From positions 2,480,001-2,544,000 of the forward strand of contig NZ_CP090371.1 in NCBI RefSeq assembly GCF_021431925.1: a DNA stretch of 64,000 nucleotides, written 5' to 3'. Made by a program: the position numbers and the translations under genes. The stretch's first letter is position 1. Every line of letters starts with the position of its first letter. Below are positions 22,720-24,557 of this stretch, one piece after another. This stretch comes from Halobaculum sp. CBA1158. GTDB lineage: Archaea; Halobacteriota; Halobacteria; Halobacteriales; Haloferacaceae. The notes under the pieces were generated by a model that ran no database searches, was not told where the DNA came from, and was given only the letters and a program-made list of their open reading frames with translations.

Positions 22720-23070
22720 CGCCTCGCGCGCTCGCTGTCGCTCCCGCTCGGCCGCGTCGACGCGGCCCGATCGGTCGACCCCGTTGCCGTTCTCGTCCGT
22801 CGTCGCCGCCGCGGTTCGTACCGTATCGTCGTCGCCGCCGCGGTTCGTACCGTATCGTCGTCGCCGCCGCGGTTCGTACCGTATCGTCGTCGCCGCTGTC
22901 GCGGTTCTCGGTTCCCGTTTTCGCCGTCGTTCTCTCCCCGTCGTCGCCGCCGACGCTTCGCGAGCGTTTTCGAACGCTCGTGAACGCTCCGGAGCGTTCC
23001 GTACGGGATCGGACCGCTATCTCCCGCGGAAGCCGAAGGTTTACACGCCGGCGCGGGGGAATATCTCGAC
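22720..23070. other. pstB-phoU spacer with 29-bp repeat
   Basis: No gene is seen in this 351-nt gap. It holds a 29-bp tandem array (22801-22888), a short palindromic stretch (GAACGCTCCGGAGCGTTC, 22981-22998), and a TATA-like GGTTTACAC at about 23038-23046, some 28 nt before the phoU ATG, so phoU can be transcribed on its own. Confidence 0.6.
22801..22888. repeat. 29-bp tandem repeat, three units, intergenic
   Basis: The core GCCGCCGCGGTTCGTACCGT recurs at 22805, 22834 and 22863, a strict 29-bp period, and then decays. It is unlike the 24-bp array at 9557. Confidence 0.88.
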
Positions 23071-23742: not shown

Positions 23743-23770
23743 CGAACCTCTCTTCGCCTCGGGTTTCCTC

Positions 23771-23791
23771 GCGCTCGCCAGAGGCGAGCGC
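23771..23791. terminator. Perfect hairpin downstream of phoU
   Basis: GCGCTCGCC-AGA-GGCGAGCGC forms a 9-bp perfect stem with a 3-nt loop 29 nt after the phoU stop. It lacks an adjacent T-run, so its role in ending transcription is uncertain. Confidence 0.4.
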
Positions 23792-23809
23792 TGCGGGAAC
23801 CGCTCGGCG

Positions 23810-23833
23810 AAAACCCGTTCATGCCAAAAGGCC
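23810..23833. repeat. Inverted repeat, left copy, beside AT-rich segment
   Basis: AAAACCCGTTCATGCCAAAA (23810-23829) followed by GGCC. An exact inverted copy of the 20 bases lies at 24414-24433, with GGCC at 24409-24412 and one extra base between. Both copies continue inward into a hairpin and a GCTCACGG-containing tail. Confidence 0.85.
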
Positions 23834-23989
23834 GGACCCTCCCTCCGGTCGGGTCCGGTGAACCGCTCGCTTCGCTCACGGATGCTATTTCGGCAGTCCC
23901 GACCTACGAGTCGTTCTACTTGGAGCCGTTCTACAAGCTGAAGCGGTCAGCGAGATATCCAGGATATCCTGCTATCGACAGGTGATGCA

Positions 23990-24202
23990 CTATGAATCAT
24001 CTGTTCCCTTCTTTGGGAGGTTCTTCCGCTCTGAGAAGTAATATAGAATAACGATGAACCCTGCAGCAGGTACTATTACTCCTAACCAGTACTTCTCCGG
24101 ATTCTTCAGAGTAAGCCGCTTTGCGTCGAAATACATCAAGATCCCTATCGGTATCTGAATAGCGATAGCGCCGACAATGAGTACATAAGCCAACTCAACC
24201 AT
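23990..24202 (-). CDS. Small two-helix membrane protein in AT-rich segment
   Basis: The 70-residue protein (MVELAYVLIVGAIAIQIPIG start) has two hydrophobic helices at about 3-24 and 38-58. Its tail, SERKNLPKKGTDDS, is basic, unlike the acidic proteins around it. Codon use is markedly AT-richer than the neighbours, so the gene was probably acquired. ATG at 24202 is preferred; a longer frame to 24238 adds a Cys-containing stretch of doubtful value. No family recognised. It lies inside a segment bounded by inverted repeats. Confidence 0.55.
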   Translation of the reverse strand: MVELAYVLIVGAIAIQIPIGILMYFDAKRLTLKNPEKYWLGVIVPAAGFIVILYYFSERKNLPKKGTDDS

Positions 24203-24408
24203 TGCTGTTCGTCCGCAACACGGTATGATAATACTCACGCTGCGAGAGTGTGTTTACAAGATTTGCAGCGTCATCGAGCAGTTATTTCATCTGTGACCCC
24301 CCGAAATAGAATTCTACGACTATTCTCGGGAACACAATTAGATGACCGCCTGCGGTTGCGGTTCGCTCTAGCGATTGTTCCGTGAGCGAGGCCGAAGGCC
24401 GAGCGAGC
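24203..24408. other. AT-rich spacer with no further gene seen
   Basis: The low-GC character continues here until about 24350, then returns to GC-rich repeats (CGTGAGCGAGGCCGAAGGCCG). No second gene or tRNA was found. Confidence 0.45.
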
Positions 24409-24433
24409 GGCCATTTTGGCATGAACGGGTTTT
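24409..24433. repeat. Inverted repeat, right copy
   Basis: GGCC-A-TTTTGGCATGAACGGGTTTT, the reverse complement of the left copy at 23810-23833 apart from one extra base. It overlaps the outer arm of the nested hairpin element by four bases. Confidence 0.85.
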
Positions 24434-24557
24434 AGTGGGGGTCTGGCCGCAGTCGTTCGAGAGGCGCTTCGCGCCTCTCGTGATGACGAGAGACGGCTCC
24501 GCCGTCTCTCGAACCACGGGCGGCGAAGCCGCCCGCGAGGACATGCCCCCACTAAAA
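24430..24557. repeat. Nested hairpin element downstream of cdc48
   Basis: Outer 12-bp arms TTTTAGTGGGGG (24430-24441) and CCCCCACTAAAA (24546-24557) enclose three perfect hairpins: 24458-24480 (10-bp arms, loop TTC), 24487-24511 (11-bp arms, loop TCC) and 24517-24535 (8-bp arms, loop GAA). As RNA or single-stranded DNA it would fold into a cloverleaf-like form. It begins 6 nt beyond the cdc48 stop codon, so it forms that mRNA's 3' end. Confidence 0.8.

Follow-up and report, generated by a model that had tools for sequence, protein, structure and literature searches.

The closest described systems to the locus considered here are the transcription terminators of haloarchaea and other archaea. 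In the searched text of PMC7237163, termination in Haloferax is placed at intergenic T-stretches; there (Haloferax volcanii) and in the searched text of two papers on the U-tract and aCPSF1 (PMC8716108, PMC7515710), a T-run with a preceding TC stands at gene 3' ends, as it does at our locus, and hairpins are reported near some of the sites. The element described here differs in that its T-run comes before a long covarying hairpin, after which stand an invariant 20-mer and another hairpin, and in that T-runs occur on both strands. Such a composite element was not found in the searched text of these three papers, nor was a description of it among the results of our open-access literature search. 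Other systems share parts of the arrangement. Bacterial REP/BIME sequences (PMC2817692) are likewise short intergenic palindromes present in several copies, near gene ends and in inverted pairs, and MITEs also place inverted repeats around a short AT-rich piece. Integrons, including archaeal ones (PMC9668308, whose main text on archaeal integrons does not name halobacteria), resemble an array in genome G007 in which small AT-rich genes are separated by a repeat of ~70 bp.

The window analyzed is a stretch of 64,000 nt from Halobaculum sp. CBA1158 (G000; NZ_CP090371.1, 2,480,001-2,544,000), and positions refer to it. The space between phoU and cdc48 holds two exact copies of the 20-mer AAAACCCGTTCATGCCAAAA in inverted orientation, as the initial annotation had stated, whereas 100 shuffles of the window yielded no match even with up to three mismatches. 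A looser inverted pair (23791-23829 and 24414-24452; 39 nt, 77%) includes both copies. The other structural claims of that annotation also hold: at both arms, (A/T)GGCC, a hairpin, and GCTCACGG lie in this order on the inner side of the 20-mer; the interior is AT-rich (GC 0.45-0.50 inside vs. about 0.63-0.70 around); and it contains one plausible gene, for a small membrane protein on the minus strand. Coordinates are collected in the table. The pstB-phoU interval contains, at 22790-22905, a sequence of about 30 bp (cgtcgtcgccgccgcggttcgtaccgtat) repeated in tandem.

Table. Features of the phoU-cdc48 interval in the window
Feature	Start	End	Strand	Basis
phoU, host gene of left element	23071	23742	+	ORF; stop TAA 23740-23742
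Left gene-3'-end element: GAACCTCTCTT (23744-23754), hairpin 1, 20-mer, alternative hairpin 2 (GGCCGGACCC...GCTCACGG)	23744	23881	+	
Left 20-mer core	23810	23829	+	Genome copy search, window shuffles
A-unit, 71-bp cargo border, genus-restricted repeat	23892	23962	+	Genome comparison
Species-specific cargo, AT-rich, own probable promoter region	23963	24264		GC profile, junction comparison
Cargo gene, small membrane protein	23990	24202	-	ORF; relatives search
B-unit, conserved cargo border, cdc48 side	24265	24341	-	Junction comparison
Right gene-3'-end element (cdc48): GAACCTCTTTT (24564-24554), long compound hairpin 1, 20-mer, hairpin 2	24380	24564	-	
Right 20-mer core	24414	24433	-	Genome copy search, window shuffles
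cdc48, host gene of right element	24564	26789	-	ORF; stop TAG 24566-24564

The 20-mer forms the central part of a composite element, built as GAACCTCTTTT - hairpin - 20-mer - second hairpin, and at both arms this element reaches outward to the stop codon of the neighboring gene; the cdc48 stop shares one base with the start of GAACC. Read from the stop codon, the common form begins with GAACC(T/G)CTTTT and a variable hairpin rich in GC, continues with AAAACCCGTTCATG(C/A)CAAAA and another hairpin containing CCGCTCGCTCGG..CCTCGCTCGCGG, and closes with a short tail. The left arm departs from this form by its alternative second hairpin, GGCCGGACCC. Since phoU and cdc48 converge, their two elements form an inverted pair. 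The repeats are probably two resident hairpin-forming gene-3'-end elements, that of phoU and that of cdc48, which act as two-way terminators or insulators and frame a safe, flipping slot for foreign genes.

The position at gene ends was assessed with 56 distinct elements, the majority from Halobaculum and a few from other genera, that had been picked without stop-codon information. Fifty of them start 1-9 nt past the stop codon of a reading frame with 100 codons or more, compared with 3.65% of random positions at the same loci; the six exceptions include L100, where sequence is inserted ahead of the element, between it and the gene, and L042, which has a tandem start. The T-stretch immediately downstream of the gene end, GAACCKCTTTT, has a T-run of only four. 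It occurs 13 times in the genome (the reversed pattern, not once), and among 11 contexts viewed, those at gene ends were mostly full elements, two were plain T-runs after genes, and three were coding-like.

The host genes belong to 14 families, 11 of which are represented by two or more copies. Families recurring across genomes are cdc48, phoU, PFO beta, ETF alpha, AOR (aldehyde ferredoxin oxidoreductase), enoyl-CoA hydratase, and a beta-CASP nuclease; further hosts include a cdc48 paralogue, a pyridine-nucleotide oxidoreductase, and a short-chain dehydrogenase. The nuclease, named from Pfam Beta-Casp and RMMBL matches and from the read-through sequence, is probably aCPSF1, the termination nuclease. 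This probable aCPSF1 gene bears its own 3' element in the present genome (L099:2598-2760; G000:C1, about 1274600), which invites the question whether it is autoregulated. The element is missing from many genes.

The initial annotation had proposed a search for the 20-mer in the genome and its relatives; copies do occur elsewhere, single and at gene 3' ends. The genome contains five at no more than one mismatch (three exact, two with one mismatch), and two of the three exact ones lie in the phoU-cdc48 slot; with up to two mismatches, the 20-mer is present in 10 of 11 Halobaculum genomes. A covariance model of the element detected 10 copies in this genome and 2-12 in each of the ten further Halobaculum genomes; of 49 genomes from outside the genus, 19 gave matches, many of them weak. 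On a plasmid of Halobellus sp. DFY28 (NZ_CP134947.1; L254), a gene of the Mrp/NBP35 family is followed by a 77-bp piece with 95% identity to the left arm, and the alternative second hairpin GGCCGGACCC is also present there, so that element modules travel between genera.

RNA folding of both arms closes the base of hairpin 1 by a GAAC:GUUC stem (z = -3.0 and -6.4); in the left element, GAAC at 23744-23747 pairs with GTTC at 23817-23820. Over 52 copies, this stem is GAAC:GTTC in 42, CGAC:GTCG in nine, and mixed in one, with 207 of 208 cells paired against a shuffle maximum of 198, and in the phoU element both sides have changed together between species. Hairpin 2 keeps its internal loop and contains compensated pairs. 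Since the base of hairpin 1 covaries, pairing in a single strand appears to be selected, while independent changes may be few, because the variants form two subfamilies. The covariation is compatible with structured (extruded) DNA as well as with RNA, the latter being the simpler inference. No Rfam family scored above its gathering threshold, and a relaxed threshold gave only chance-level scores.

Length variation of the element is modular. A long form (L100, L240, L041, L063, and L064) carries two extra hairpins within the 20-mer, between ATG repeats and joined by TGCTgA-like linkers, and L055 and L059, from other genera, contain inserts resembling them. In the cdc48 element, hairpin 1 (24453-24540) contains further nested hairpins of the GAGAGACGGC and GAGAGGCGC types, which recur in G005 at the end of phoU and, as a relic, in G009; gene ends thus exchange hairpin modules.

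An origin as REP/BIME-type mobile palindromes, which would have lodged at gene ends and multiplied across the genome, is unlikely. The several copies per genome are in line with it, as are similar hairpin modules at different loci, e.g., a hairpin 1 common to a G005 locus (L107) and the phoU element of G007, but such sharing is compatible with gene conversion. Moreover, REP/BIME sequences, which a Y1 (REP-associated) transposase mobilises, number in the hundreds, whereas the covariance model found about 10 copies here, fixed 1-9 nt from stop codons of conserved host genes, and their presence at the same host genes across species indicates inheritance in place.

T-runs of at least four reach 6.8 per kb on one strand of the elements and 11.9 per kb on the other, compared with 0.09 and 0.19 in the host genes, i.e., the density is ~60-75 times higher on both strands. 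This suggests that the element functions as a two-way terminator or a 3'-end protector. A scan for the usual hairpin followed by T5 found no terminators; the form of the element is different.

Orthologues of phoU were found in 58 of 60 relatives searched. Of 80 named haloarchaeal loci, 14 have phoU and cdc48 converging within reach of each other, and six of these 14 show a detectable inverted pair (Halobaculum litoreum, isolate XH8, Halegenticoccus soli, Halobium salinum, Haladaptatus halobius, and Natronomonas gomsonensis). Within Halobaculum, with one genome sampled per species, the slot contains a small membrane protein gene in G000, a HalOD1 protein gene in G002, lipoprotein-like genes in G004 and G007, a gene for a PLP-dependent enzyme in G005 and G007, and only repeats in G001. 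In G010 (L066) it is filled by two adjacent AT-rich ORFs (310 and 245 aa) without Pfam matches, which could be a toxin-antitoxin or defence pair. Two slots are cargo-free: that of G006 consists of the two elements alone, and that of G008 holds an 85-bp remnant. The junctions of G003 and G009 are unrelated.

The cargo gene of G000 ends at 23990 and has 82 codons from the first GTG (24238), the ATG at 24202, which yields 70 aa, being the more likely start. Cargo and flanks show 73-82% DNA identity to loci in other genera, and the protein has a patchy distribution (9/118 genomes), with relatives on plasmids of Haloplanus, Haloterrigena, Natribaculum, and Natrinema. No match pointing to a phage origin was found for the cargo or the arm. 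Of the two readings initially offered, that of intergenic repeats which had trapped foreign DNA stands as regards the foreign, species-variable interior; the repeats themselves are resident gene-end elements, present also without cargo.

The cargo is bordered by the A-unit and the B-unit in G000, G001, G002, G004, G005, and G007, and it switches at fixed points, immediately after ATACAG and immediately before GCAGC. Among 40 genomes, the A-unit is confined to Halobaculum. Five direct copies of it separate small AT-rich genes (HalOD1, DUF7344, MFS, and unknowns) in G007 (C1:2216250-2219442; L138:5241-8453), in what looks like a cassette array; one of these is 100% identical to an A-unit at the phoU junction, 965 kb away and with unrelated flanks. 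Next to the array are an IS605-OrfB-like fragment and PQQ-domain genes.

The fixed junctions and the array would suit an integron-like platform in which gene cassettes are exchanged between the 71-bp A-unit and the B-unit, both serving as recombination sites, yet we regard this as quite improbable. Integrons encode an integrase, but no integron-type integrase (TIGR02249) exceeded the cut-off in any of the 11 genomes; no attC-like fold is apparent, 12 A-units showing no covariation and no compensatory pair; and gene orientation relative to the units varies. Kinship of the A-unit and the B-unit, suggested by eye, is unconvincing, as shuffles gave no support for it. An unrecognised haloarchaeal platform, in which the 71-bp units exchange single AT-rich genes by dedicated recombination while the paired inverted elements insulate the slot and allow flips, is a similarly distant prospect.

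The slot also changes orientation. A 1506-bp stretch common to G005 and G007 (92.9% identity) lies between the same two genes but points in opposite directions, and the segment of G001 is inverted relative to G000; the A-unit adjoins phoU in G000, G002, G004, and G007 and cdc48 in G001 and G005. Trees were built from coding sequence only, an earlier one from 1.8 kb around phoU having shown odd long branches; they place G005 and G007 as sisters and resolve little else. On this tree the pattern requires at least two changes of orientation unless one was introgressed, and one of the two inversions could be such an introgression. Judging from the outcome alone, the flips are likely caused by recombination between the inverted elements. 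An invertible switch, in which a dedicated site-specific recombinase acts on the inverted elements, turning the segment over and thereby controlling the cargo gene, would also produce both orientations among species but is very unlikely, given that the slot lacks a recombinase gene, that at many gene ends the element is single with nothing to flip, and that the cargo appears to have its own promoter region.

The other initial reading, a MITE-like non-autonomous transposon whose terminal inverted repeats are the 20-mers and which moved in as a whole, can be rejected despite the exact inverted arms, the AT-rich interior, and the further 20-mer copies in the genome: unlike in MITEs, the arms are independent of the interior, being single at other gene ends and keeping their orthologous place with or without cargo; arm pieces only, rather than a complete arm-cargo-arm unit, were found elsewhere; and at the phoU-cdc48 junction, where an empty site with a target duplication had been anticipated, cargo-free G006 retains both arms, and in the window no direct repeat is visible outside the arms.

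Under the preferred reading of resident gene-3'-end elements, each would end or protect the transcript of its own gene just past the stop codon on the sense strand and would block antisense transcripts arriving from the other side; as two-way terminators, they predict antisense transcript ends at TTTTGGCATGAACGGGTTTT. The space between the paired elements would be a safe slot, where AT-rich foreign genes may come and go with phoU and cdc48 unharmed, and recombination between the two inverted copies would now and then flip it.

The element adds a covarying 3'-end structure outside the Rfam families, kept at core genes of a haloarchaeal genus, and with it transcript ending and insulation at convergent archaeal genes become directly testable. 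The phoU-cdc48 interval is a documented slot between core genes, with foreign genes exchanged and flipped among close species.
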